Shown piece after piece: positions 6,557 to 36,556 of a stretch of DNA of 36,860 nucleotides. This DNA is from Treponema sp. GTDB lineage: Bacteria; Spirochaetota; Spirochaetia; Treponematales; Breznakiellaceae. The stretch is taken from assembly GCA_031260245.1 (NCBI GenBank), contig JAIRKH010000014.1, positions 1 to 36,860 of the forward strand. The letters run 5' to 3'. A program made the position numbers and the translations under genes. Below the pieces are notes generated by a model that saw only the letters and a program-made list of their open reading frames with translations, was not told where the DNA came from and made no database searches. Every line of letters starts with the position of its first letter. Within the stretch, counting starts at the first letter, position 1.

Positions 6557-8368
6557 TTGAAAAAAATGAGAAAATTGAAGGGAATAGCAACGGTTGCGAC
6601 CGTTATTGTGATGGTCGGATGTACGACGACCATTCTGTCCAAAGGCGCGACGGATTACGCGGGACAATTCGAGTCAGCGCGTAAGCAATTACAGATAGCG
6701 GAACCCGCTACGCGGACGGACAAACAGCCGCTTATACTTGCCCATTATATGCCGTGGTATGAAGCGCCGCCTGTGAGCGAGCAGTACGGGTTTCACTGGC
6801 ACCAAGGCGGCAGTAGATTCGACCCGTATACCACTCTGGCGGACGGCAGAGCGAGCATCGCCTCGCGCTATTATCCGCTTACAGGTCCCTACGACTCGAA
6901 AGACCCGGCCGTTTTGGAATATCAAGCCGCGCTTATGAAGATGAGCGGCGTAGACGGCGTGATTTTTGATTGGTACGGCGTCCGGGACGCGCTCGACTAT
7001 AAGAGCGTACACGAGGCGACCCTAGTTATGGTCGGTATTCTCAAGAAACACGGGCTGAAGTTTGCGGTGTGTTACGAAGACCAGACCGTCAAACATATGA
7101 TTGAAGGGAATTTCATAGCCAAAGCAGACGCTATAAACGTCGCAAGGGAGGCGTTCACGTGGATGCAGGAGCATTGGTTCACGGATGAAAACTATGTGAA
7201 ACTGGACGGCAGGCCGCTCGCGCTTGACTTTGGTCCCCAGTTCTTCACGCAGAAGACCGAATGGGAAGAGATTTGGGCCGACGTTGACCCGAAACCGTTT
7301 TTCGCGGACATCGACAACCGCGTAAATTTTGCGGACGCTACCTTCAACTGGCCTCCCATGCACCTGTCGAGCGGCGGCAAGCTCGCGGTTCCCCGGCTTG
7401 TTACCTATTTGAACGCCTTCTACGAAAAGCAGAACGCCAAGCCCTTCCTCATTGGGACCGCGTTCCCGGAATTCCACGATATTTACGCGCTGGCCGGTGG
7501 AACAAGTTACGGGTTCCTCGATTATTCGGACGGCGAAACTTTTAAGCTGACCTACGACGCCGCGGAAAAAGCCCGTCCGGACGTGATTCAAATAACCACA
7601 TGGAACGACTACGGCGAAGGGACCAGCGTCGAGCCGACCATTGAGCGAGGCTACGCTTCACTTGAGTATTTGCAGGATATGCGAAAGAAGCGGGACCCGG
7701 ACTTCGCCTTCAACTATGTTGATTTACGCATACCCATTGAATTGTACCGCATAGCGGCGGGCGAAGACGACGCAAAGAAGCGGCAAGTCGAAGAGATTTA
7801 CGCGGCGATTTTCGACGGAGACGCGGAAGCCGCGCGAAACCTGACTCGTTCCATGGGTATTGACTACGACTTCTCCGCCCGCCCCGTCCTGCGGGACGCG
7901 GGCGAATCCGCGCCAACGGAAATAGCCGCGGTGTTTGACCCGGCCGGCAGGAGAAACCTCGCGCTTGGGAGACCCGTCGTAACTTCGAGCAGGATTTACG
8001 ACTTCACCGGGGCCAAAGCCGTGGACGGGGACCTCTCTTCCTATTGGGAGGGCGCGTCCGACAAGTGGCCGGCCGACTTCACGGTGGACCTGGTGAGCGC
8101 GGTAAAACTCTCCGCCGCGGTCGTCAAACTGAACCCGCAGCGCATCTGGGGAAAACGCTCGCAAACCATAGAAGTACTGATTAGTTCCGACAACGAAACC
8201 TTCACGAGTCTAGTACCGCCGACCGCCTACGTGTTTGACCCAAGCGCGAACGGCAACGCGATCGCCGTTCCGCTCGACGCGCAGGCGCGTTACGTACGCT
8301 TCGTCTTCACCGCGAACACAGGCGCGAAATCAGGTCAAATCGCCGAATTCGAGGTTTACGGTGAATAA
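6557..8368 (+). CDS. Secreted GH71/99-like glycosidase with C-terminal F5/8C (CBM32-like) domain
   Basis: 603 aa. The start is TTG 6557, five bases after AGGGGGG; ATG 6566 is a poorer alternative. Residues 1-22 are a lipoprotein signal with a loose spirochaetal lipobox (MVGC, Cys22). Residues about 55-440 form a GH71/99-like barrel: HYMPWY (63-68), YYPLTGPYDS, GVIFDWYG, CYED, then WNDYGEGT (349-356), which occupies the place of the WNEWxEG catalytic loop of GH99/WbsX-type proteins, with Asp351 and Glu354 as candidate catalytic acids. Residues about 465-603 are a galactose-binding-like F5/8 type C domain (NLALGRPVVTSS, KAVDGDLSSYW, ARYVRFVF). The substrate is unassigned; alpha-mannan or an alpha-glucan is possible. 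It overlaps the next gene by 8 bp and is first in the operon. Confidence 0.85.
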   Translation: MKKMRKLKGIATVATVIVMVGCTTTILSKGATDYAGQFESARKQLQIAEPATRTDKQPLILAHYMPWYEAPPVSEQYGFHWHQGGSRFDPYTTLADGRASIASRYYPLTGPYDSKDPAVLEYQAALMKMSGVDGVIFDWYGVRDALDYKSVHEATLVMVGILKKHGLKFAVCYEDQTVKHMIEGNFIAKADAINVAREAFTWMQEHWFTDENYVKLDGRPLALDFGPQFFTQKTEWEEIWADVDPKPFFADIDNRVNFADATFNWPPMHLSSGGKLAVPRLVTYLNAFYEKQNAKPFLIGTAFPEFHDIYALAGGTSYGFLDYSDGETFKLTYDAAEKARPDVIQITTWNDYGEGTSVEPTIERGYASLEYLQDMRKKRDPDFAFNYVDLRIPIELYRIAAGEDDAKKRQVEEIYAAIFDGDAEAARNLTRSMGIDYDFSARPVLRDAGESAPTEIAAVFDPAGRRNLALGRPVVTSSRIYDFTGAKAVDGDLSSYWEGASDKWPADFTVDLVSAVKLSAAVVKLNPQRIWGKRSQTIEVLISSDNETFTSLVPPTAYVFDPSANGNAIAVPLDAQARYVRFVFTANTGAKSGQIAEFEVYGE

Positions 8369-9794
8369 AGCGAATTTCGAGTCGGGAATGAGACGCTCCT
8401 TGTCCCCGCGCTTCGGCGCGACGCCGCGTTCAACGCGCGGGAGCGATAAGGGACGTTTGCCCCCCCCCCCCGCACCATTCAATAAAAAACTATATATCCT
8501 CTTCGCGTTTTGTCTTATTCTTTTAACAAACTGCTTTTCCGCGCTGGCGGTTGACGAACCGGGCGCCCCAGAATATCCCTCGAAAACCACCGTCGCGGAC
8601 GGCGGCGGACCCCTCGTTCTCGTTCACTATATGCCTTGGTACGACGGTCCCTCGACGAAGTCCCAAGAGAACGACCTCTCTGTGTACGGGGGGCATTGGA
8701 CTGGCTGGGGCGCAATCAGGTGCGACGAGACGACCGCGGACCGCAAGGCGAAAATATACGCGCGCCAGTACCCGCTCACGGGACCCTACGACGGGGACGC
8801 GGAAATCCTCTTGCAATACCAGACCGCGCTTATGAAGATTGCGGGCGTGGACGGCGCGATTTTCGATTGGTACGGGAGCGACGCGGTGAACGACTTCGGC
8901 GCCATCCACGAAAACGTCAAGGCGGCAGTAAGGGTTCTGAAAAGCGCGGAACTTAAATTTCTTCTCTGTTATGAGGACAACACGCTCAATATGAGGGGCT
9001 ATCAGAAAAACGACCCGGCCGCGGTCGCGGCGGGAAAACGCTCGTTTGATTGGGCGCAACGGAATTGGTTCACGGACGCGGCTTACGTTCATTACGAAGG
9101 CAGGCCTGTGGCGCTTTGTTTCGGACCTCAGTATTTTAACGCGAAGGCGCAATGGGACCAGGTATTCGGCGGCGTTGACCCGAAGCCGTATTTCGGGGAT
9201 TTAGACAATCGGTATTCGTGGGCTGACTTTTCTTATAACTGGATACCCATGAGCCGCGCCGTCGACGGCGTTCTGTCTCAAGACGCGCTGACCAATTACC
9301 TGGACTCGTTTTACCGCGGCGCTCAAAGCCGAAAGCCCTACCGCATGGCGACCGTGTTCAGCGCGTTCGACGACGCCTACGAGCTTATCGGCGGGACGAG
9401 TTACGGGTACTTGGACTATGCGGACGTTTTCGCCTTGACCTTTGAGAAGGCGCTCGCGCAGTCACCCCAAGTCATACAAGTTGCGACATGGAACGACTAT
9501 GGCGAAGGAACCATCATCGAGCCGACTATAGAGCGGGGCTATGCGGAGCTTGAGTACTTGCAGGACAGGCAGAGGGAATGGGACGCGGACTTCCCTTTTA
9601 CCAAAGAAGACCTCCGGTATCCTTTGGAATTTTACAAATTACTCTACGCGGACGCGGCCGACTCTTGGCAGAGAGCCGCGATAGCCGCGGCCTACGCGGC
9701 TGTTTTCGCGGGTTCCGCGGAGACGTTCCGCGCCGAAGCCGCGAAGACGGGCGTAACGGTAGACGTAAACGACTTGAAACCGCTTTTGCGGTAA
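8361..9794 (+). CDS. Secreted GH71/99-like glycosidase paralogue, start region crossed by a 12-C tract
   Basis: A single-domain paralogue of the preceding enzyme without the F5/8C tail: VHYMPWY, YPLTGPYDG, GAIFDWYG, CYEDNT, WNDYGEGTIIEPTIERGY. The signal segment KKLYILFAFCLILLTNC gives either a lipobox (LTNC) or a SPase-I site (ALA). The start is uncertain. GTG 8361 overlaps the upstream stop and has GAGG six bases before it, ATG 8388 lacks a good site, and TTG 8457 directly precedes the C tract. No start lies between tract and signal peptide, so every candidate reads through twelve C. With 11 or 13 C the secreted enzyme would be out of frame. The mature part (about 420 aa) is secure; the first about 40 residues may not be genuine. 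Confidence 0.82.
   Translation: MNKANFESGMRRSLSPRFGATPRSTRGSDKGRLPPPPAPFNKKLYILFAFCLILLTNCFSALAVDEPGAPEYPSKTTVADGGGPLVLVHYMPWYDGPSTKSQENDLSVYGGHWTGWGAIRCDETTADRKAKIYARQYPLTGPYDGDAEILLQYQTALMKIAGVDGAIFDWYGSDAVNDFGAIHENVKAAVRVLKSAELKFLLCYEDNTLNMRGYQKNDPAAVAAGKRSFDWAQRNWFTDAAYVHYEGRPVALCFGPQYFNAKAQWDQVFGGVDPKPYFGDLDNRYSWADFSYNWIPMSRAVDGVLSQDALTNYLDSFYRGAQSRKPYRMATVFSAFDDAYELIGGTSYGYLDYADVFALTFEKALAQSPQVIQVATWNDYGEGTIIEPTIERGYAELEYLQDRQREWDADFPFTKEDLRYPLEFYKLLYADAADSWQRAAIAAAYAAVFAGSAETFRAEAAKTGVTVDVNDLKPLLR
8460..8471. repeat. 12-C homopolymer upstream of the second GH71/99-like signal peptide
   Basis: Twelve consecutive C, the longest homopolymer seen in the window. Such tracts slip during replication. 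Its place between the only plausible start codons and the signal peptide makes it a candidate translational on/off switch. Assembly error in the tract length cannot be excluded. Confidence 0.9.
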
Positions 9795-24988: not shown

Positions 24989-25804
24989 TTAGAGGCAAAG
25001 ATTACGAGGGGATATGCGCCGCGTTTCTTTTACCGCGTCCAATGCGCTATGAAAAGCCGTCGCGATCTGTCCCAAGAAAGAAGACGGCGTAATAAACGAA
25101 TATTCTTGTTTTTTCTCGCCGCCGAAAGATTCCTTAAATTGGTTGATTAAAAGCTGTTCCGCGTAAGTTCCAGTCGTCTCGCCGTACCAGCCGCCGAAGT
25201 CGTAGTACCGTACACCTGCGTGTTTGAAAAAAAGTATATCGTTCCAGTGGAGCAAACGATTCGCCCTCCCTATCATATTGCGAGTTTCAGCGTCGGCAAC
25301 ATTGCGGAAAAGCGACGAGGACTGGTGAAGCCGCGCCGTCCCATCCGATACAACGTAGGCGTGCATAGTAAGAATCGCGCCGTCTCCGTCTGTGATATAT
25401 CGGACGCAAAACGTCTTGTTTTCATAAAATTGTTTAACGTCTGAATAATCGACGCGCGACCTCTTTTTAGATTCGGCGAATATATTAAAGAAATCAATAT
25501 ATTGCAAGAGTTTCTCCATATTTTCTTCGTCTTTTTCAAGAAGCGTAAAACATTGCGCGCCGTCTTTATTTTTCGCGCGGTTGATTTCATAACGTGTATT
25601 TTTCCGTATATGAGAAAACAATTCATCTTCCGGTTTCGTCAAATCAATTAAGAGCGTCCATAATTCTTCAAAAGACGCGGCGTCTCTTTTGTTTTCCGCG
25701 ACGAATTTGTAACGCAGAACGTCGGTTTTTCTGTCAGGCTTTTCTTCGTAATTATACCAGATTTCCGCTATTTTCATTGCGTTCTTTTTTCGGTAATAAA
25801 TCAT
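24989..25804 (-). CDS. FemAB/GNAT-like acyltransferase of the envelope locus
   Basis: 271 aa from ATG 25802-25804 (AAGGAA five bases before). ELFSHIRKNTRYEINRAKN (about 62-80) matches the helix of FemAB/GNAT-type proteins that load amino-acyl or acyl groups onto cell-wall precursors. The C-terminal half has LHWNDILFFKHAGVRYYDFG and a late LINQFKESFGG, both typical of GNAT proteins in polysaccharide loci. It lies 23 bp after the YidC-sulfatase gene as the last gene of a three-gene operon. Likely role: adding an amino-acid or acyl decoration to the polymer or its lipid carrier. Donor and acceptor are unknown. Confidence 0.75.
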   Translation of the reverse strand: MIYYRKKNAMKIAEIWYNYEEKPDRKTDVLRYKFVAENKRDAASFEELWTLLIDLTKPEDELFSHIRKNTRYEINRAKNKDGAQCFTLLEKDEENMEKLLQYIDFFNIFAESKKRSRVDYSDVKQFYENKTFCVRYITDGDGAILTMHAYVVSDGTARLHQSSSLFRNVADAETRNMIGRANRLLHWNDILFFKHAGVRYYDFGGWYGETTGTYAEQLLINQFKESFGGEKKQEYSFITPSSFLGQIATAFHSALDAVKETRRISPRNLCL

Positions 25805-25827: not shown

Positions 25828-28635
25828 TTAATCTTGTAAAGCCGTCGCAAAATCGCGATAACGCGTCTCGCGCCAATTTTTTTCGTCGTAAATATTATCG
25901 CGCACATAATAAAACCGCGAATCAGACTCAAGACAAACCGCTCCTTGATAATACGAAGTATTTGTCCATCCGCCCGTGAAAATATAAACGCCGTTTTCCT
26001 TTTCAGGCGCGAGCGGTTTCCTCGTGAACGGATTTATCGGATTTCCTACGATGTCTTTTAACGCGAGAAGCGGCGCGTCCGCGTTGGTCATAAAAGCAGA
26101 GTCCGTTTGAAACGGCGTTTCCATAGCGTCAAAATCCTTTACCAGTAAAATAGGGCTGTAAGGCAGGACGTGGTTGTTTTGAAAAGACGAAAAATTAGGA
26201 TGCGTAATTCCGCCGTCTCCATGATCAGAAACGATAACGACGCGAGTATTATTCCACACATTGTTTTCCTGTAGAAATTTAAACCATTTCGCCAAGAGAA
26301 TATAACTCGCCGCGTTCACGTGATAATACTTGAAAGAATCGTTGCCGAAAAAATTGTCGCCGCGTTCGGTAATAGCCTTAGCAGGCTCGTAATCCGGATA
26401 TTGCAAATACGCGGAGTCGTGCGTGAGGTCGTTCACCAGAATCGTAAATGCGCCGTTTTGCGAATCCGTTACCGCGGTAATTTCCGTCAAATAAAAAAGC
26501 GCGGAGTAATTGTCGAGCGTTGAGCGCGGCGCGCCCGCGTTCTCCGTAAAATCCGTCATTCCCCAATATTTTCCGTTTTGATATAAAAAGTCGCGGACGC
26601 TAAAAACCGACGTTTTTACAATCGCAAACATCAGCAGATTGCGGCGCAACAATTTATCTAAATTAACCGGCTCCGCGTATTCTTCAATATCCAATTCTTC
26701 TTTTAAAAATTTATCAGTCCATCTTCCGATAATTTCAATATTCGTAATACCGCGCTTTTCGTAGAAACCTTCTTCTATCGGCTGGTAATAATTCAGATAA
26801 GGAAGATTACTTACCGTTACATCGAAATTACGCTCATGGAAAATCGTAGGCATAAGCAGGAGCGCCTCGTTGTGTTTCTCGCGCATAGAAACGTCGGCGC
26901 GTTTGTTCATATTATAGGTTGAATATTCATAACCGCCGAACATCGGCGGCGTTCCGAAAAGCGTGCGGCGGAAAAACGAAATCGTGTTTGGGTAATAGGT
27001 GAAGCCTTGAAACGCGGACGCAACATCGGCGCGTTCTTTCGCTATAAGCGGAAAATATGAATTAATCGCGCCGTCGAGCATAATGAATAAAACGTTCTTC
27101 TCGTTCTTTGATAAGGTTATTTTTTGAGAAAAAGAATCAAACGAATCTGATTGCGTAATTTGTTCTGACGTCGGATTTAAGAAAAATCTATTTATTGATG
27201 CGATTTTTATAATCAATAGGGCGCAAACGCTTATTATACAGAGCGTTAAAAGAGGCGGTAAAATCTTATTCGATTTTATCTCGCTGAAAAGCTTGGAAAC
27301 GGGTTTAAAACCCTTCGCTCCTTTACCGCTCGCGATAGCGCAAATCAAAACGAAGACAAAAAAACATACGATAATATTAACCAATTGCGCGAAAAAGCTC
27401 TTGCGCATATACACGCCGTCTGGCAGACTGAAACTCAAGGTCTGCGACACGATGCCGTAATTGCCGTCAAATACGAAAAAATTCAACAAAACGCATATCG
27501 CGGCTGTCGCGCCGAAAACCGCAAGAACGGAACGGACGGGGCGCGGCGCGAGAAAAAAGAGGCATAGGGTCCAAAAGAAAAACAATCCAAATCCTTGAAT
27601 CATGGGCGCGGATAAAAGCGAGAGAAAATTCGTTTCAAACGTTTCCGCCGTCTGCGCGAAATACGCTGGGTCTGACGCGGCTGTATTTAACGGAATGAAG
27701 CAAGTGATAAAAAGCCATAAAATCGCGCATGATAAAACAAATAGTACGCTAGCGTTTTTTATTTCAAAAAGAAATTCAAGCCGCTTTTTGAAAATATATT
27801 TCGCCGATTTTATGTAAAGCGGCATTCCCGTGAAAAATAAAAACGCCAGAACTGAAAACGTTTTGTTGCGGAACGCGCGAGACGGAAAATTGTAGCGAAT
27901 AAAACATACATAAATCATAAACGCAAAACACAAGGCGCATCCCGCAAAGTAAACAATCCGTATGGGATTTTTTATCTTAAAGAGAATATTTTTAGCGAGC
28001 GAGTAAAGATTGTTCATCGTCCAATATAAGACGAGCGCGGACGGTGAATTATAGAGCAGAACGAGGAAAATAGCGCTCATGGCGTAAAGCTGAATCTTTT
28101 CTCTCAGGGGAAACCCTTTGCTATAAATAATTCCCGCTAGAATATTTATAAGGGTCATAATTATCGGCAGAATATTTATGGAAAATCCGCCGACGGCTGC
28201 GTCCTGTTGGCTTAAATCGTTTATGAAAAGAAAGCTTTTCCCCTGCAACGCCGTGAGGTGGGACAGAAACGAGTACGCGGCGATAAAGAACGGAATCTGC
28301 AAAAGCAGACTGAGCGAACTTCGGAGCGCGTAAATCGGATGATAATGGTTCTGCCGATAATATGCGGTTATGAGCAACCACCGCTCGTCGCCGGTAAAAC
28401 ATTTACGGATACGCGCTAATTTTTTCGCCATACGTTTTTGCGTTTCGCGCTCAATTTCTTGCAGTTTTTCCGCCTTTGTGTAAAGCGGAAGGCACAAGGT
28501 ATTGACGGCGACGCTCAACAGCGCGAGCGCCAGCCCTGCGTTTTCCTTAAACACGGAAACGTAGAGAATCGCGTAAATACATTCCATTAAAAGTTTTATC
28601 GGATAAATAATTATTGTAAAGAGTACGTCCAGCAT
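25828..28635 (-). CDS. YidC/Oxa1-like domain fused to a sulfatase/LTA-synthase-like domain
   Basis: 935 aa, start ATG 28633-28635 (AAGGCGAG upstream). Residues 1-225 resemble the YidC/Oxa1 core: TM1, then LLSVAVNTLCLPLY, a charged cytoplasmic hairpin (about 55-90), LLLQIPFFIAAYSFLSHL and LYWTMNNLYSLAKNIL. It lacks the large periplasmic P1 domain. The groove arginine, normally five residues before the Pro of TM2, is Asn here. Residues about 228-510 hold about seven further membrane helices. Residues about 510-935 are an extracytoplasmic alkaline-phosphatase-superfamily domain with the metal ligand in VLFIMLDGA (Asp near 520), TLFGTPPMFGG as candidate nucleophile region, and VIVSDHGDGG (about 804) as second metal site. 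This class moves glycerol- or ethanolamine-phosphate between lipids and polymers. It sits between a TagF-like gene and a FemAB-like gene. Confidence 0.85.
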   Translation of the reverse strand: MLDVLFTIIIYPIKLLMECIYAILYVSVFKENAGLALALLSVAVNTLCLPLYTKAEKLQEIERETQKRMAKKLARIRKCFTGDERWLLITAYYRQNHYHPIYALRSSLSLLLQIPFFIAAYSFLSHLTALQGKSFLFINDLSQQDAAVGGFSINILPIIMTLINILAGIIYSKGFPLREKIQLYAMSAIFLVLLYNSPSALVLYWTMNNLYSLAKNILFKIKNPIRIVYFAGCALCFAFMIYVCFIRYNFPSRAFRNKTFSVLAFLFFTGMPLYIKSAKYIFKKRLEFLFEIKNASVLFVLSCAILWLFITCFIPLNTAASDPAYFAQTAETFETNFLSLLSAPMIQGFGLFFFWTLCLFFLAPRPVRSVLAVFGATAAICVLLNFFVFDGNYGIVSQTLSFSLPDGVYMRKSFFAQLVNIIVCFFVFVLICAIASGKGAKGFKPVSKLFSEIKSNKILPPLLTLCIISVCALLIIKIASINRFFLNPTSEQITQSDSFDSFSQKITLSKNEKNVLFIMLDGAINSYFPLIAKERADVASAFQGFTYYPNTISFFRRTLFGTPPMFGGYEYSTYNMNKRADVSMREKHNEALLLMPTIFHERNFDVTVSNLPYLNYYQPIEEGFYEKRGITNIEIIGRWTDKFLKEELDIEEYAEPVNLDKLLRRNLLMFAIVKTSVFSVRDFLYQNGKYWGMTDFTENAGAPRSTLDNYSALFYLTEITAVTDSQNGAFTILVNDLTHDSAYLQYPDYEPAKAITERGDNFFGNDSFKYYHVNAASYILLAKWFKFLQENNVWNNTRVVIVSDHGDGGITHPNFSSFQNNHVLPYSPILLVKDFDAMETPFQTDSAFMTNADAPLLALKDIVGNPINPFTRKPLAPEKENGVYIFTGGWTNTSYYQGAVCLESDSRFYYVRDNIYDEKNWRETRYRDFATALQD

Positions 28636-28654: not shown

Positions 28655-29914
28655 TTATTTTTGGTTTTCATGGAGATACGACGCGTTACTGACGACTGGC
28701 GTTTCAGACTCGCCGACGCGGGTCAGAAAATCCACAACGCGAGCGCCGCATTCGCCGATATGACGCCACGCCGTCTCCTTCGCGGTCTTGCGGGCGCTAG
28801 ACTTTTTCTCGTCGGCGACCGCCTCTTCTACAATTTTCTTGATACGCGGCAGTTCCGCTTCTTTTAGCTCAACCCCAAAACTTCTCACGGCTTCAAAACG
28901 CCAAAGTTCATGTTCAATATCGCCCGCGTCGTACATCGCGCGGTTGAAAAAAGCGTCCGCGTAAATCACCGGGCGGTCAAATAGGAACGCGAAATCAAAG
29001 ATGACGCTGGAAAAATCAGACAGCATCGCATCCGATTTTGACAATGTTTCAAGGTTTTCCGGCGAATAATCCCACTCCACTGCGTCCTTGTAGCGTTCTT
29101 CGAGGCGTTTCAACATCTTCGGCTCGCTCTTTTTTGATTGCGGATGCGGACGCACGATGACGCGCCACCCGGTCGCTATAAGCGGGTCCAGTAGTCTTTC
29201 GCCGAATACGTTCAATAGCGAGCCTTTGCCCCATGACGGCGATACTAAAACGGTAAACGGCCGCTTTTCCTCTTTTGGCAAAGCGGCTAATTTTTCCTGA
29301 AAAACGTCGAGATACGCGCTCCCCACAACCTCAAGCTCCTTTGCCTTGATTCCACGCTGTCTCTCCAGTTCTCGAATGTCGGCTTTCTGATATTCGCCGG
29401 ATAAAAGCACGGAATCGAACCAGTCAAGCCCGAAAAGGCGGTAACAAACCGCGTCGCCGACGTCGTGCAAGATATGCGCGTAATGTCTGACGCCTTTGGA
29501 GCGTTTGAGCTGATAAACGTCAAGCCCAGGCGTGGTCATAAGGCATACGTCCGCCTCCAGTAAGTTGAGGCGCGCAAACGCCTTATTGTCAACGCCGATG
29601 AATTCGCCGCTTATGCGCGCGTAATTTTGCGCGAAAAAAGGGTCGTTTTCCGCGGACGTGAGGTAGCGGACCGCGATACCGCGCCGCTCGAACTCGTCCA
29701 AAATCGGTTTGAACACGTTCCAATACTGGTTTCCTTCGTTATAAACGACGAATTTATGCCGCGTTTGAGAGGCCGCGGACGTTCTCCCGACGGAAAAAAA
29801 CAACTTCGCCTTGACGAGCGCGGTCCGAAATAAAAAATATCCCACCGCCGCGATTCCCATCAAAAACGAAAAAAGCATACTACCCGTTCCCGGGTCAATG
29901 TAAAGTCTAAACAT
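28655..29914 (-). CDS. TagF/TagB-like CDP-glycerol glycerophosphotransferase
   Basis: 419 aa. The N-terminus YIDPGTGSMLFSFLMGIAAV makes one membrane anchor. The rest is a GT-B-like glycerophosphotransferase: VYNEGNQYWNVFKPILDEF, TTPGLDV, IVRPHPQSKK (the conserved RPHP motif) and MLSDFSSVIFDFAFL (the SD-x-SS-x-FDF motif that binds phosphate). Such enzymes polymerise or prime glycerol- or ribitol-phosphate from CDP donors on a lipid-linked acceptor at the inner membrane. First gene of a minus-strand operon with the YidC-sulfatase gene 19 bp downstream. A strong promoter lies about 290 bp upstream. At 419 aa it is closer to priming enzymes than to long polymerases. Confidence 0.85.
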   Translation of the reverse strand: MFRLYIDPGTGSMLFSFLMGIAAVGYFLFRTALVKAKLFFSVGRTSAASQTRHKFVVYNEGNQYWNVFKPILDEFERRGIAVRYLTSAENDPFFAQNYARISGEFIGVDNKAFARLNLLEADVCLMTTPGLDVYQLKRSKGVRHYAHILHDVGDAVCYRLFGLDWFDSVLLSGEYQKADIRELERQRGIKAKELEVVGSAYLDVFQEKLAALPKEEKRPFTVLVSPSWGKGSLLNVFGERLLDPLIATGWRVIVRPHPQSKKSEPKMLKRLEERYKDAVEWDYSPENLETLSKSDAMLSDFSSVIFDFAFLFDRPVIYADAFFNRAMYDAGDIEHELWRFEAVRSFGVELKEAELPRIKKIVEEAVADEKKSSARKTAKETAWRHIGECGARVVDFLTRVGESETPVVSNASYLHENQK

Positions 29915-30208: not shown

Positions 30209-30238
30209 AGTATATCACCGGGTTGTTTTATCTGTCAA
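30209..30238 (-). promoter_or_regulatory. Promoter of the TagF/YidC-sulfatase/FemAB operon
   Basis: Minus strand: perfect TTGACA (30233-30238), 18 bp, TATACT (30209-30214). It is divergent from the LicD promoter about 100 bp away; a run of nine C (30259-30267) lies between them. Confidence 0.75.
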
Positions 30239-30390: not shown

Positions 30391-31215
30391 TTGAGGATAA
30401 CAGGGGATGAATTACGGAAAGTTCAACTGATTCAATTAAGAATTCTGAAAGAACTGCGCAGAATTTGCGTTAAACATAACATTAAATATTTCTTATCTGA
30501 CGGCACATTGATTGGCGCGGTCCGTCACCACGGCTTTATTCCGTGGGACGACGACCTTGACGTAGGTATGCTCCGCGAGGAATACGAGCGGTTTTGCCGC
30601 GTATGCAAAGACGAGCTTTCCGTTGACTATTTTTTGCAAAATATGGATACTGACCCAGGCTATGCGGCGCCCTACGCCAAACTAATGCTTAATGGAACAG
30701 AATGGATCGAACATATCCATGTAAAATGCGAAAAGCGTAATGGAATAAATATAGACATATTTCCATACGACTGTATACCGTTTAATAGAATTAAACAAAT
30801 ATATCACCGCCGCGCGTTTACTGTACTTAATGACGCCTTGCGGATTAAAAAAGGATATGTTTGCAAAATAAGAGTAACGGCGAAGAAATTCTTAATCGTC
30901 TTGATTTTGACCCATTTATTTTCTTATAAATTATTGTCAAAATTATTTAATAAAACGCTTGTTAAATATAATTATTTGAGCAAAACCGATAATTGTATTG
31001 TAACGAAATTTGGCGGATCTTATTACAGGAACCAGAATCCCAGAAAAGCGTTTCTGAATTTGACGTTAGTGGAATTCGAAGATTCCTTGTTTTATATTTC
31101 CAATGATTTTGACGACATTTTGAAAAATTTATACGGCGACTATATGACTATTCCGCCCGAAGCGGAAAGATTGTATCATGATATAGTGTCGTATAAATTA
31201 CCTGATGAAAAATAA
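30391..31215 (+). CDS. LicD-family phosphotransferase
   Basis: 274 aa from TTG 30391 (AAGGAA upstream). The LicD nucleotidyltransferase-like core lies at residues about 30-62: KYFLSDGTLIGAVRHHGF, then PWDDDLDVGM, where the Asp cluster would bind metal. NIDIFPYD (about 122) and a closing LYGDYMTIPP are also family features. LicD proteins transfer phosphocholine or other phospho-alditols from CDP donors to surface sugars. It is the only plus-strand gene in the envelope region, converges on the cyclodeaminase-like gene with adjacent stop codons, and is clearly AT-richer than the hydrolase genes, which fits horizontal origin. Confidence 0.9.
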   Translation: MRITGDELRKVQLIQLRILKELRRICVKHNIKYFLSDGTLIGAVRHHGFIPWDDDLDVGMLREEYERFCRVCKDELSVDYFLQNMDTDPGYAAPYAKLMLNGTEWIEHIHVKCEKRNGINIDIFPYDCIPFNRIKQIYHRRAFTVLNDALRIKKGYVCKIRVTAKKFLIVLILTHLFSYKLLSKLFNKTLVKYNYLSKTDNCIVTKFGGSYYRNQNPRKAFLNLTLVEFEDSLFYISNDFDDILKNLYGDYMTIPPEAERLYHDIVSYKLPDEK

Positions 31216-32407: not shown

Positions 32408-33304
32408 TTAATTCTTGAAACTTTCCGGATGATTGCAAGGCGTATCCGGTAAAATAGCGTAGCTATGACTCTCTCGCTTATCGAGAGGAGGCGCCTTCAT
32501 ATAATCGCCGTATTGCCGCCGTAAATATATATCAGGATTAAACGGCGCGGGAAAATACTCATTTTCAAACAAAACTTTTGTAAGCGGGAAGATCTCGTTT
32601 TTATTAAAAATCTTATTTGGAAAATTAGCGCACAGGAACGGGAAAAAATAAACGCCGTCGTCCGTCGACGACCATAATTTCTTGTAGAAATAGAGAGTAT
32701 TTTGATATACTGTTTTTGAATATATATATTTATCTTTTAGAAATATCCGTATTATAAAAGAGACAGGGAAAAATAACGCAACGGCTAGTTTGCCTCTTAT
32801 TCTACGTCTTTTCATGGAACCTTTCGGAATATAAATAAATCTTGTAATCCATGAAATCTTATCAAAAAATTTAAGAAGACAAAACGCCTTTTTTACATAT
32901 TTTCGCTTGATAATATCTATTGGAAATATGTCGATAAAAATACCTTGATGAAATGGAATATAAATACCTTCGTCGCCTTTTTCAATCAAAACGCTTTTAC
33001 GGTCCCGCAATTTAACGCAAAAACATCCGGGAAAGCGATCTGTTTCTATTGTTTGTACAAAAATATCGCTATTTAAATAATATTGCCCATTGCGAGCGAA
33101 AGCTTCAAAATCGCTTCGCGGCATCGCAACGTCAATGTCGTCGTCCCAGGGAATAAATCCTTTGTGGCGTATCGCTCCTAACAAAGTGCCGCCGTCCAGC
33201 CAATACGTCCAATTACGCTCGCGGCACACTCTGTCAAAGTCTTTTAGCAAACCTAGTTGTATTTCTTGACATTTTTTTAAATTAATATCGTCTATCATTT
33301 TCAC
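32408..33304 (-). CDS. LicD-family phosphotransferase, second copy
   Basis: 298 aa. Core motifs: YWLDGGTLLGAIRHKGF then PWDDDIDVAM (about 33-62), GIFIDIFPIDI (about 120) and a late LRRQYGDYMKAPP. It has a hydrophobic stretch (LAVALFFPVSFIIRIFL) that may touch the membrane. The ATG lies inside the 3' end of the epimerase-like gene (23-bp overlap), giving a coupled three-gene order cytidylyltransferase, epimerase, LicD. That order fits synthesis of a CDP-alditol or CDP-sugar followed by its transfer as a phosphodiester. Only about 30% similar by eye to the other LicD, so the two probably have different acceptors. Confidence 0.9.
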   Translation of the reverse strand: MKMIDDINLKKCQEIQLGLLKDFDRVCRERNWTYWLDGGTLLGAIRHKGFIPWDDDIDVAMPRSDFEAFARNGQYYLNSDIFVQTIETDRFPGCFCVKLRDRKSVLIEKGDEGIYIPFHQGIFIDIFPIDIIKRKYVKKAFCLLKFFDKISWITRFIYIPKGSMKRRRIRGKLAVALFFPVSFIIRIFLKDKYIYSKTVYQNTLYFYKKLWSSTDDGVYFFPFLCANFPNKIFNKNEIFPLTKVLFENEYFPAPFNPDIYLRRQYGDYMKAPPLDKRESHSYAILPDTPCNHPESFKN

Positions 33305-34358
33305 CCCTTGACTTCATAATTTCTAAAGTCCTGACGAGACCTTCTTTTATAGAAAAAGCCGACTTCCATCCCAATTCGCCGATTTTAGAACAATCAAGAA
33401 CGGCTTTCGTCGCCTTTGAATAACCTTTCGCCTCCGCCAAAGCGGGAATATCGTACACTATTTGTTTATTGACGTAATTCGACAGTATTTCCGCGATTTC
33501 ATATAACGAAGCGCGTTCACCGGAATCCGCGATATTATAAGCCTCTCCGTTTTTTCCGTTTAACAATAAAAATAAAACCGCGACGCAAACGTCCGCGACG
33601 TAACAAAAAGAATAGCGTTGCGTTCCTTCGCTTTTTAGAATAATATTTTCATTTTTTGCGGCGTTTCTCAAAAATTGGGCGACCGCTTTACTGTCGTCAG
33701 TAGACATCGTGGGGCCGTAGACGCGGCTGCACCGCGCGATTACAATATCGCTTTCTTTTTCGCTAATGTACGCTTGACACAACGCTTCCGCGGCGCGCTT
33801 TCCCTCTGGATAACCGGCTCGCAAGGTATTGCAGTTTATATAACCGCAATACGCTTCGTCGAATCGTTCAACGTCTCCACGGTTCTCGCCGTATATCTCA
33901 ACCGTCGAAAGAAATACGGCGCGTTTAACTTTTTGGGAAACCGCTAAATCAAGAATGTTTTTTGTCCCTAACACAGATAATAATATGGTGTTTATTGGGT
34001 CGGTCGAATACGCAAGAGGATGCGTATTGCTTGCGCCGTGTATAATAAAATCAATTTTTTTCTCTTTTTTCTCTTTTTGAATAGATTGGACGTCTCGTTG
34101 TATGAAAATAAATCTGGGATTATTAAAATAATCTCCAAATCTTTCTCTCGCCTTTTCTATATTTCTTGACATTGCGTAAACCGTAATGTTATCTTTATAA
34201 ACCGCGTTGCGGTACATTAAAGCGTCGACAAACGCCGTACCGATAAGCCCTGTAGCGCCGGTAATGAGAATATTCGTATTCATCAATCGTTCCCACTCAA
34301 TAGCGCATGAAGCGATAGCGGCAATATCTTCATTGTATAATTTATTATTAGAAAACAT
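33282..34358 (-). CDS. NAD-dependent epimerase/dehydratase-family (extended SDR) enzyme
   Basis: 358 aa. Residues 27-40 hold the dinucleotide-binding ILITGATGLIGTAF. FIIHGASNTHP, the catalytic AVFLSTVEIYG and the YPEGKR motif (Tyr-x3-Lys) follow, with a substrate-binding C-terminus ending RTLEIMK. The start is taken as ATG 34358, 3 bp after the cytidylyltransferase stop. The extra 25 N-terminal residues (YNEDIAAIASCAIEWERL) are typical of SDRs paired with LicD/IspD-like genes. It probably reduces, epimerises or dehydrates a nucleotide-activated sugar for the following LicD, comparable in role to TarJ, although TarJ itself is a zinc alcohol dehydrogenase. The precise reaction is unknown. Confidence 0.88.
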   Translation of the reverse strand: MFSNNKLYNEDIAAIASCAIEWERLMNTNILITGATGLIGTAFVDALMYRNAVYKDNITVYAMSRNIEKARERFGDYFNNPRFIFIQRDVQSIQKEKKEKKIDFIIHGASNTHPLAYSTDPINTILLSVLGTKNILDLAVSQKVKRAVFLSTVEIYGENRGDVERFDEAYCGYINCNTLRAGYPEGKRAAEALCQAYISEKESDIVIARCSRVYGPTMSTDDSKAVAQFLRNAAKNENIILKSEGTQRYSFCYVADVCVAVLFLLLNGKNGEAYNIADSGERASLYEIAEILSNYVNKQIVYDIPALAEAKGYSKATKAVLDCSKIGELGWKSAFSIKEGLVRTLEIMKSRGENDRRY

Positions 34359-34361
34359 ACT

Positions 34362-35072
34362 TCACTCGTTTCGTTTCTCAATAGACAATAAAGCCTTAAA
34401 TAATTCTATATCGTCAAGCGTGGTTATTTTTATGTTTCTATCTGAACCTGCCGCGAAGTGTAAGGTTTCCCCCAATTCTACCATCATGGTGTTAGCGTAT
34501 GAAGAACCGTATATACCTATTTTTTCGTCAAAAGCTTTTTTATACGATGTATATATATTATGGAATATATAAGCCTGAGGCGTCTGTACGCGGCGCAACG
34601 TCTCGCGCTGTATATATTCATCTGTGGTCAATCCGTCCGTTGTTTTGAATATTTGCTCGTTGTAAGGCAGGCTCGACACGGCGTTTCCATATTTCTTGCA
34701 TACCGCGATACAATCCGAAACAACCGCTTTATCTATAAGCGGCCGTATGCCGTCGTGTATTATTACAATATCGTCAGCCTTGCAATTTTCCGCGAGATTA
34801 TAGACTCCGTTGCGGATAGACTCTTGTACCGTCTCGCCGCCGTTCACGATCCATTTTAATTTAGAGATATTATACTGCCGAGCGTAGGCTTTCACTATTT
34901 CATGCCACCCATCAAGACATACCGCTTCAATGACGTCTATATCAGGGTGCGTTTGAAATCCCTCAAGCGTATAAATGAGTATCGGTTTATCATAGACGTT
35001 GATAAACTGTTTCGGAATTTCTTGCATCGTCCGTTTTCCAGTACCGCTTGATATTACCAAAGCGATGTTCAT
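34362..35072 (-). CDS. TarI/IspD-like cytidylyltransferase
   Basis: 236 aa; ATG with AAGGAGAAACG upstream. Motifs of the IspD/TarI group: LVISSGTGKRTMQEIPKQF (CTP loop, with the conserved PKQF), VIIHDGIRPLI, YIQRETLRRVQTPQAYIF, and TMMVELGE near 205. The enzyme makes a CDP-activated alditol or sugar phosphate. Placed before an SDR and LicD in one operon, CDP-ribitol or a similar CDP-polyol is more likely than the isoprenoid intermediate, and IspD proper would not lie in such a cluster. No consensus promoter was seen; a T-rich triplicate repeat lies just upstream. Confidence 0.87.
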   Translation of the reverse strand: MNIALVISSGTGKRTMQEIPKQFINVYDKPILIYTLEGFQTHPDIDVIEAVCLDGWHEIVKAYARQYNISKLKWIVNGGETVQESIRNGVYNLAENCKADDIVIIHDGIRPLIDKAVVSDCIAVCKKYGNAVSSLPYNEQIFKTTDGLTTDEYIQRETLRRVQTPQAYIFHNIYTSYKKAFDEKIGIYGSSYANTMMVELGETLHFAAGSDRNIKITTLDDIELFKALLSIEKRNE

Positions 35073-35125: not shown

Positions 35126-35274
35126 TGAAATAAAAGAGCCGTTCTTCTTTCCTCGATATATAGAGACTGCATTTCAAACGCGGAACAATCCCTTCGCTTA
35201 TCTACGCTGTCAAGGCAGCGGCGAAGATACCGATCAACCTTATAAACGGGAATAATTATTGATATTTTTGGCAT
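35122..35274 (-). pseudogene. GT2 glycosyltransferase remnant (first about 25 codons intact)
   Basis: ATG 35272-35274 with AGGAAG five bases upstream starts MPKISIIIPVYKVDRYLRRC, then LDSV: the exact first strand-helix of a GT2 family glycosyltransferase. The frame then departs (DKRRDCSAF...) and stops after 50 codons, where a GT2 would run to about 250 or more. The rest of the gene is missing. It overlaps the 3' end of the intact GT2/methyltransferase frame by 35 bp, and its ribosome site lies inside that frame. Confidence 0.85.
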
Positions 35275-36556
35275 AATAACTTCCTATTTCCGTCGCCGGA
35301 ATTCCCGCGCCGATTTCAAGAACGGAGTCCGGTTGAACCGCGAGTATCTCGTCAATTTGATGATAAAAGCTGTTCCATCGCGCCTTATCAATATATCTCT
35401 TAAAATCGTAATGAGCCGCGACGACTTGCTTCTCAAACATACGCGCCCCCTTGAACATGAGGATACGCGCGTTTGAAATATAAACGCCGAATTCTATAGC
35501 TATATAGTACCTGGGGGGGGGGAGTAAAAGATTCTTCAGTCTATGAGACGCTCTGATAATATCACTGCCCGCTCTTTTCAAGGAATTCATAATTATGCGT
35601 GTAAAGTCGTTATAAAGCAGAGAAAAAAGTAGAAACGGCAGGCGCAAATAGAGCCAGTGGGATTTGTTCAAAGGATATTCGTTCAAGCTTTTATTTTCCG
35701 CTAAAAATATTTTGAGTTTTTCCTCAAAGAAGGCGGCGCGACTGGCGTATTGAAAAGGAAAATCGGTATGAATATTTATAAACGCCGAAAGAGTTGAAAT
35801 ATATAACGCCTGACGATCAATAAGAGCGTCGTTCTTTAAATCTTCATAACGAAGCCAACGGTTTTCAAAACAATCAAAGGCGTTTTTAAATGATTTCTTC
35901 CTCACAATGGAATTTTTTCGCTGAAAATAAAAATACTTGAAATATTCTGATAAAACAACAACCCTATTCGCTTTCAGAAACAATTTATACATAATCGCGA
36001 TGTCTTCAAAATTTTTCCCAAGTGGAAAACGCTCTTTTTCAAATAATTTTCTCGTATATATTTTATTCCAGACATAATTTTCAATATATTTGTCTTCAAG
36101 CAACATAGAAAGCGCTTCTTTATTAGAGAATTCTCTATCAAAATCAAATATATATTTCTGTCGCCTCATACATTTTTTTTGATAGGCGATAAAATATCCG
36201 AATTGAACAATATCCGCAGGAGTTTTTTCATACGTTTCAATGATTTTTGTATAAACGTTCTCTCCGAGCCAGTCGTCAGAATCTACAAAAGCGATTAAAT
36301 CACCGGTCGCTATATCTAAACCCGCGTTTCTGGCGGACGACAATCCGCCGTTTTTTTTGTGAATCACGATGATTCGCGGATCTTTTTTCGCGTATTCATC
36401 GCATATTTCCTCGCTCCCGTCGGTCGAGCCGTCGTTAATAAAAATTATTTCCAAATTTTTATACGGCTGTGTTATGACGCTTTCAACGCATCTCCGCAAA
36501 TACGGCTTAACGTCGTAAATGGGTATGATAACGCTAATTTTCTTTGTTTCAAGCAA
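35240..36556 (-). CDS. GT2 glycosyltransferase read through a poly-C tract into a methyltransferase fragment
   Basis: 438 aa from TTG 36556 (AGGAGG six bases upstream). Residues about 8-115 are a GT-A domain: SVIIPIYDVKPYLRRC, IFINDGSTDGSEE, HKKNGGLSSARNAGL and VDSDDW (metal-binding Asp). About 120-345 is a C-terminal region typical of capsule/O-antigen transferases. At residues about 346-348 ten C encode PPP. Beyond that the frame enters a different gene fragment: SNARILMFKGARMFEKQVV then HYDFKRYIDK and SVLEIGAGIPA, the N-terminus of a SAM methyltransferase including motif I, cut off at residue 438. The natural GT2 probably ends near the C tract. With 9 C it would stop after GTI, with 11 C about 36 codons on. 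Confidence 0.82.
   Translation of the reverse strand: MLETKKISVIIPIYDVKPYLRRCVESVITQPYKNLEIIFINDGSTDGSEEICDEYAKKDPRIIVIHKKNGGLSSARNAGLDIATGDLIAFVDSDDWLGENVYTKIIETYEKTPADIVQFGYFIAYQKKCMRRQKYIFDFDREFSNKEALSMLLEDKYIENYVWNKIYTRKLFEKERFPLGKNFEDIAIMYKLFLKANRVVVLSEYFKYFYFQRKNSIVRKKSFKNAFDCFENRWLRYEDLKNDALIDRQALYISTLSAFINIHTDFPFQYASRAAFFEEKLKIFLAENKSLNEYPLNKSHWLYLRLPFLLFSLLYNDFTRIIMNSLKRAGSDIIRASHRLKNLLLPPPRYYIAIEFGVYISNARILMFKGARMFEKQVVAAHYDFKRYIDKARWNSFYHQIDEILAVQPDSVLEIGAGIPATEIGSYYAKNINNYSRL
35314..35483. repeat. Direct repeat copy A: methyltransferase 5' end
   Basis: About 170 bp, strongly similar to 36609-36779 in the same orientation. It holds the start of a SAM methyltransferase (ATG 35438-35440, AAGGGGG upstream), whose frame runs 66 codons to 35240, past motif I (LEIGAG), before a junction with the GT2 remnant. 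Copy A has five C at the ribosome site where copy B has six. Confidence 0.88.
35513..35522. repeat. 10-G tract inside the GT2 frame
   Basis: Ten G on the plus strand (ten C in the coding sense) at the junction between GT2 and the methyltransferase-like segment. Its length decides the GT2 C-terminus. Confidence 0.9.

Follow-up and report, generated by a model that had tools for sequence, protein, structure and literature searches.

What does a cell do with a protein that joins a YidC-type insertase core to an enzyme of the LTA-synthase type? This question is raised by a gene in the window, i.e. the stretch of 36,860 nucleotides of Treponema sp. contig JAIRKH010000014.1 analysed here. A preliminary description of this DNA, made from the sequence alone, had reported a single 935-aa frame, and this frame is indeed present on the minus strand. 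We conclude below that the protein and its TagF-like neighbour are likely to form an envelope phosphoryl or phosphonyl transferase system.

Architecture and integrity of the fusion protein

The following features were assigned to the protein and its parts:

25828..28635, minus strand: fusion protein P0001, 935 aa, with a YidC-like domain, a 7-TM region and an alkaline-phosphatase-superfamily domain; ATG start, no internal stop
27970..28635, minus strand: YidC/Oxa1 domain, residues 1-222 (PF02096 profile; Foldseek match 3wo6)
28501..28503, minus strand: N45 codon, at the site where YidC has its basic groove residue
27136..27969, minus strand: polytopic middle, residues 223-500, with about 7 TM helices
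25831..27135, minus strand: extracytoplasmic alkaline-phosphatase-superfamily domain, residues 501-935 (Foldseek)

The start codon is preceded by a Shine-Dalgarno-like AAGGCGAG at positions 28646-28639. PF02096 matched residues 34-219 with 76.4 bits (cut-off 35) and was also found in all 27 sequences of our A1 set, while TIGR03592, which describes the C-terminal core of YidC, gave 83.2 bits and thus fell just short of its cut-off of 84.3. The AlphaFold2 model of the fusion, for which 113 sequences were used, had a pLDDT of 89 and a pTM of 0.86. Residues 1-220 of this model matched Bacillus halodurans YidC (3wo6) in Foldseek with a TM-score of 0.73 and an rmsd of 3.4 A at 20% identity over 214 columns. 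The profile and the predicted fold therefore bear out the earlier view of a YidC-type core without a P1 domain. This core consists of an N-terminal helix (residues 2-28), five TM helices and a cytosolic C1 hairpin (residues 52-100). The charge pattern, read by the positive-inside rule, predicts seven more TM helices behind these five and places the enzyme domain outside, in line with the polytopic region that had been proposed between the two domains. Residues 223-500 were also folded apart (pLDDT 87) and gave no significant PDB match, YejM appearing only at a probability of 0.09. Likewise, the 5-TM N-terminal domain of the LtaS/EptA class was looked for in the middle of the fusion and was not found. 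The idea that the middle region represents the TM domain of the LtaS/EptA/YejM class was therefore rejected.

Homologues were searched in 60 related genomes, in 393 from the phylum and among the contigs collected from GTDB. This yielded 179 distinct fusions that are intact in a single frame. They occur in Treponema and its relatives, in Sphaerochaetaceae and in a spirochaete family with closed genomes (f30), and, outside the Spirochaetota, in Ruminococcaceae, Lachnospiraceae, Saccharofermentans and Elusimicrobiaceae. An assembly or frameshift artefact that joined two genes, for which one might invoke a relative where both parts are separate frames (L162:14709-17413), is practically out of the question in view of so many intact fusions in independent genomes and phyla, single-contig genomes included. 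Many of the genomes in our counts are MAGs in which binning errors are possible, and the counts span related species, but single-contig and isolate genomes (G216, G366 and Ruminococcaceae bacterium YRB3002) show the same picture. In the split relative, which belongs to G223, two consecutive frames of 221 aa (YidC part) and 664 aa (all the rest) meet at the domain boundary, next to two intact fusions; this may be either a broken copy or a natural split. Three matches of the phylum scan (G360, G288 and G149) that looked YidC-less were rejected as such, as the YidC part is present and the local alignment was merely short.

An ordinary YidC was found in 21 of the 22 surveyed genomes, each of which also has one to about ten fusions; the exception is a draft (G024) with fusion-type matches only. 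Of the three PF02096 proteins that the window genome encodes, one is an ordinary YidC of 610 aa and two are fusions, that of the window and another on contig C81. About ten paralogues are present in the isolate YRB3002 (L124/G433), and at least five stand in tandem in L101. Such expansion points to paralogues that differ in their head groups or acceptors, or to a varied surface. In a tree that omitted one ordinary YidC (L172 of G040), the YidC domains of the fusions formed one clade against the ordinary YidCs of the same genomes, with a support of 100/100 and a stem of 1.93 changes per site. Judged from this fully supported clade, the architecture therefore probably arose once and then spread. 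No match was obtained in PHROGs, and no published account of a YidC-sulfatase architecture was found in open-access full text, which agrees with the earlier statement that no function had been described for it.

Conservation of the YidC-like domain

The preliminary description had drawn attention to the groove arginine that YidC uses for insertion, five residues before the proline of TM2, and had suggested from its replacement by Asn that the domain has left protein insertion and become a scaffold or a flippase-like part. The replacement itself was confirmed (N45, before P50) and extends to the whole family: among the 176 of the 179 fusions that have a residue at this site, 75 carry N, 50 T, 48 S, and one each G, Q and C, but none K or R. 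Nor was a K or R found near the site in the same helix. By comparison, K or R occupies the groove site in 17 of the 21 readable rows of ordinary YidCs from the same genomes. Among the ordinary stand-alone YidCs without a basic residue are those of the Lachnospiraceae genomes G428 (L189) and G432 (L185), with N and Y, and those of two Elusimicrobia (G429 and G430), with Q. Since ordinary YidCs can thus lack the basic residue as well, we rejected the exchange as proof of lost insertion. Judged from the alignments, it is a solid family trait, yet no proof that the insertase function was lost.

The view of the domain as a mere scaffold fared less well. In the A2 set, which was gathered with two YidC motifs and is therefore slightly biased for this comparison, the mean pairwise identity fell from 58% in the YidC domain to 40% in the enzyme domain and 26% in the middle; the corresponding values in the A1 set, gathered with the whole protein, were 56, 38 and 27%. 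Moreover, 50 of 222 columns in the YidC domain are at least 95% conserved, versus 28 of 435 in the enzyme domain. As no other part of the protein is as well conserved as the YidC domain, a relic or passive scaffold does not appear to fit it well. The conserved residues include polar uncharged ones inside the TM helices (S41, Q113, T161, N164, N208, N209 and S212) and residues of the cytosolic C1 hairpin (R63, F80, D83, E84 and Y98).

The extracytoplasmic enzyme domain

PF00884 matched the window protein only weakly (E=0.047). In relative L168, PF02096 (76.5 bits) and PF00884 (37.4 bits, cut-off 25) both passed their Pfam cut-offs, so that the proposed search for the two domains in one protein gave a positive answer. 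The Foldseek matches of the C-terminal domain were LtaS (2w5q), LtaP (4uop), YejM (6vat), MCR-1 (5gov) and PMH (2w8s), and also sulfatases, with E-values of 1e-5 to 1e-8 for the alkaline-phosphatase-superfamily fold. The metal motifs MLDG and SDHGDGG noted earlier are present, and their residues D521, D804 and H805 are, together with T558 and H739, invariant in 113 sequences. The roles below are presumed by analogy:

27073..27075, minus strand: D521 codon (MLDG), presumed metal ligand
26962..26964, minus strand: T558 codon, presumed catalytic nucleophile (analogy with LtaS/EptA)
26419..26421, minus strand: H739 codon, presumed substrate-phosphate or metal histidine
26221..26226, minus strand: D804-H805 codons (SDHG), presumed metal ligands

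The order and spacing of these five residues fit what we take to be the metal and Thr-nucleophile set of LtaS/EptA, a comparison made by motif order. The C/S-x-P-x-R motif of formylglycine sulfatases and PMH is absent from the nucleophile region, where the invariant T558 is found instead. On the strength of the model, the C-terminal domain is placed in the LtaS/EptA/YejM fold of the alkaline-phosphatase superfamily.

A TagF-like partner gene

Directly upstream of the fusion gene lies a gene for a TagF-like protein:

28655..29914, minus strand: TagF-like partner, 419 aa (PF04464, 35.4 bits)
30209..30238, minus strand: promoter-like site ahead of the TagF-like gene, a match to the consensus only

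This protein has an N-terminal YIDPGTG motif followed by a TM helix, and a C-terminal half that resembles Glyphos_transf with RPHP and SDFS. The PF04464 scores of TagF-like proteins (35.4 and 43.9 bits, cut-off 22.1) are modest and cover the profile in part. YIDPGTG is nearly invariant among 93 TagF-like sequences and is kept across phyla.

Of the 393 spirochaete genomes, 102 have both genes, 3 the fusion only, 1 the TagF-like gene only and 287 neither. The synteny with TagF-like genes that had been proposed was borne out, and the two occur together in 102 of the 106 genomes with either gene. Completeness is 85-91% for the three genomes with only the fusion, all of them drafts, and 66% for the one with only the TagF-like gene. 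At 54 of 78 loci the two genes run in the same direction no more than 100 bp apart, many of them sharing a few bases, and either order occurs. The pairwise distances of the two proteins correlate with r=0.72 (best of 1000 permutations, 0.12), a value to which shared ancestry contributes. The fusion and the TagF-like protein are therefore best described as a two-gene system.

The second fusion paralogue of the window genome (L036:8010-10679, on G000:C81) has no TagF-like neighbour, and this genome has a single TagF-like gene. The same-genus relatives L024, L027 and L029 do have a TagF-like neighbour.

Association with phosphonate and head-group genes

Further genes in the window provide context for the fusion:

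24989..25804, minus strand: FemAB-like gene, 271 aa, next downstream of the fusion (PF02388, below cut-off)
30391..31215, plus strand: second LicD-family phosphotransferase (PF04991, 148.5 bits)
32408..33304, minus strand: LicD-family phosphotransferase (PF04991, 149.6 bits)
33282..34358, minus strand: NAD-dependent epimerase/dehydratase
34362..35072, minus strand: IspD/TarI-like cytidylyltransferase, possible supplier of a CDP-alditol donor

The envelope-polymer context suggested before is supported. The FemAB-like gene was also expected to be syntenic but is not conserved, being immediately downstream in 2 of the 179 fusions, both from the window lineage; it was rejected as a component of the system. 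A GT2 frame at 35240-36556 (minus strand) ends in a SAM-methyltransferase-like start (VLEIGAG) followed by a stop, which is either a truncated second domain or a frameshift. Two consecutive similar plus-strand frames (6557-8368 and 8235-9794), the second overlapping the end of the first, are secreted glycoside-hydrolase-like.

Neighbours that recur beside the fusions at large serve the synthesis of head groups activated with CDP or CMP: a PEP mutase to which a cytidylyltransferase-like domain is fused, phosphonopyruvate decarboxylase, PntC-AEPT, LicC-like proteins and a LicC-like/HisC-like fusion. GDP-heptose genes and LicD recur as well, and 34 of 78 loci contain a CDP/CMP head-group gene. 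In 17 of the 78 loci a protein of about 600-680 aa is found that joins a nucleotidyltransferase-like domain to a HisC/CobD-like PLP enzyme (e.g. L059:12648-14687), perhaps a phosphoserine-type decarboxylase leading to CDP-ethanolamine.

PEP mutase is present in 45 of 105 genomes with a fusion and in 23 of 288 others (Fisher p-value of 3e-14, and of 3.5e-5 within the order; relatedness was not removed, so that these p-values overstate the association). The two genes share a contig in 27 genomes, at a distance of up to 38 kb in 25 and of up to about 5 kb in 18, and of 11 genomes whose contigs are large, 9 have them no more than 50 kb apart, where chance would give 3-9% each. G216 encodes a PntC that agrees with the crystallised Treponema denticola PntC (6pd1) at every one of 616 residues; here Ppm-Ppd-PntC lie about 23 kb upstream of the TagF-fusion pair, at the start of a co-directional run that reaches them. 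A single run of genes in G366 comprises LicD, fusion, TagF, fusion, Ppm, Ppd and PntC. T. denticola cells give phosphonate 31P signals, and the steps from AEP to surface modification have been described as unknown (PMC6697681). New here are the almost constant company of the TagF-like gene and the association with phosphonate genes.

Phosphonate cannot be the sole substrate, because 60 of the 105 genomes with a fusion, including that of the window, have no PEP mutase; a search of the window genome for this enzyme gave no match. As the genes present instead at the window locus are those for an IspD/TarI-like cytidylyltransferase, an epimerase and two LicD proteins, we infer that its donor is more likely CDP-alditol or similar. 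The head group is probably aminoethylphosphonate in some loci and phosphoethanolamine, phosphocholine or alditol phosphate in others, the window included.

Possible functions of the two-gene system

Beyond the likely assignment to envelope phosphoryl or phosphonyl transfer, we consider it probable that the fusion and the TagF-like protein, acting as one system, take a phosphorus-containing head group from its CDP- or CMP-activated form and deliver it to the exterior of the envelope. PntC, LicC-like or IspD/TarI-like cytidylyltransferases would make CDP-X or CMP-X, as others have shown biochemically for PntC. The membrane-anchored TagF-like enzyme, judging from its family, would then put X-phosphate or X-phosphonate on a lipid or lipid-linked acceptor at the inner face. 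In what is the weakest step, the YidC-like domain, whose groove is polar, uncharged and strongly conserved, might pass the lipid-linked product across the membrane and/or dock the partner via its C1 hairpin. Finally, the extracytoplasmic domain with its putative Thr-nucleophile active site of the LtaS/EptA class, as its fold and invariant residues suggest, would hand the group to a surface lipid, a glycan or a growing polymer. The enzyme role of the fusion is likely, and that of its YidC domain is an inference. In vitro, lipids are scrambled by purified E. coli YidC and by further Oxa1 proteins (PMC10491306), and a lipid-handling YidC domain is therefore physically reasonable. We nonetheless regard a lipid-moving YidC domain as tentative and less likely than not. 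The same caution applies to the more specific idea that a YidC/Oxa1 domain was permanently turned from insertion to transbilayer movement of a lipid-linked donor and hard-wired to the TagF-like enzyme that produces this donor at the inner face and to the outer-face enzyme that consumes it, which is possible but doubtful.

The role of the YidC-like domain is proposed from conservation and analogy, and the fusion could still insert proteins. Indeed, the domain might be a true insertase or chaperone in cis that serves its own middle region or a dedicated client, the enzyme half being an ordinary LTA-synthase/EptA-type transferase acting on bulk phospholipid. The YidC fold and C1 hairpin are retained, the basic groove residue is missing from some ordinary YidCs too, and the anchor of the constant TagF-like partner could be the client; against this joint reading, which we rate as rather unlikely, stand the ordinary YidC in all checked genomes but one draft, the lack of K or R at the groove site in every fusion and the distinct clade on its long branch. 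It is about as conceivable as lipid movement that the domain transports nothing itself and is only a membrane platform for docking the TagF-like enzyme, catalysis being split between the two proteins. The conserved hairpin residues and the co-divergence with the TagF-like protein would suit such a platform, while the conservation of S41, Q113, T161, N164, N208 and S212 within the membrane goes beyond the needs of docking.

Far less probable is a hydrolase, either a sulfatase or a phosphonate monoester hydrolase, for the breakdown of polymers of the envelope or of foreign origin. The structural matches do include PMH and sulfatase folds, but the nucleophile region has an invariant Thr and not the Cys/Ser of the formylglycine motif, and both the near-obligatory CDP/CMP-type transferase partner and the biosynthetic neighbours speak for synthesis. 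We thus favour transfer of an activated head group to the cell surface. The pair is a concrete candidate for the steps that follow the activation of AEP, and it sits in a cluster of the organism whose PntC was crystallised. If the conversion of the YidC domain to lipid transport were true, the two genes would encode a complete make-flip-transfer device and provide the final steps still lacking in the assembly of surface phosphonates by bacteria, and the lipid scrambling seen in vitro would have become a dedicated function in the cell. The pair is abundant among spirochaetes of the gut, the rumen and the mouth as well as among Clostridia of the gut, where it marks an envelope chemistry of which no description was found in open-access text.

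Comparison with known systems

Like the YidC/Oxa1 family (E. coli YidC, B. halodurans YidC2), the fusion has PF02096, the 5-TM fold with C1 hairpin and the invariant Trp of TM5, and P1 is absent as in Gram-positive YidC. It differs in the N, T or S at the groove site, in being joined to a 7-TM region and an enzyme, and in forming a separate clade that accompanies the ordinary YidC in 1-10 copies per genome. With LtaS, LtaP, EptA/MCR-1 and PbgA it shares an extracytoplasmic alkaline-phosphatase-superfamily domain behind TM helices, and the invariant Asp/Thr/His/Asp-His set follows the same order as in the class of LTA synthases, phosphoethanolamine transferases and YejM. Unlike this class with its 5 TM helices, it has about 12 by prediction (5 of them YidC-like), a middle without detectable kinship to the TM domain of the class, and a near-obligatory TagF-like partner. 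The C-terminal half of this partner fits the profile of the TagF/TarF CDP-glycerol glycerophosphotransferases (PF04464), with RPHP and SD.S motifs. However, the match is weak (35-44 bits), YIDPGTG and one TM helix are added at the N-terminus, and the NCBIfam TarF score of 12 bits is far under the cut-off. The Pnt phosphonyl-tailoring clusters, exemplified by that of T. denticola PntC, contain the fusion and its partner, or lie near them, in many genomes, whereas the paper on PntC (PMC6697681) makes no mention of YidC, a sulfatase or a glycerophosphotransferase.
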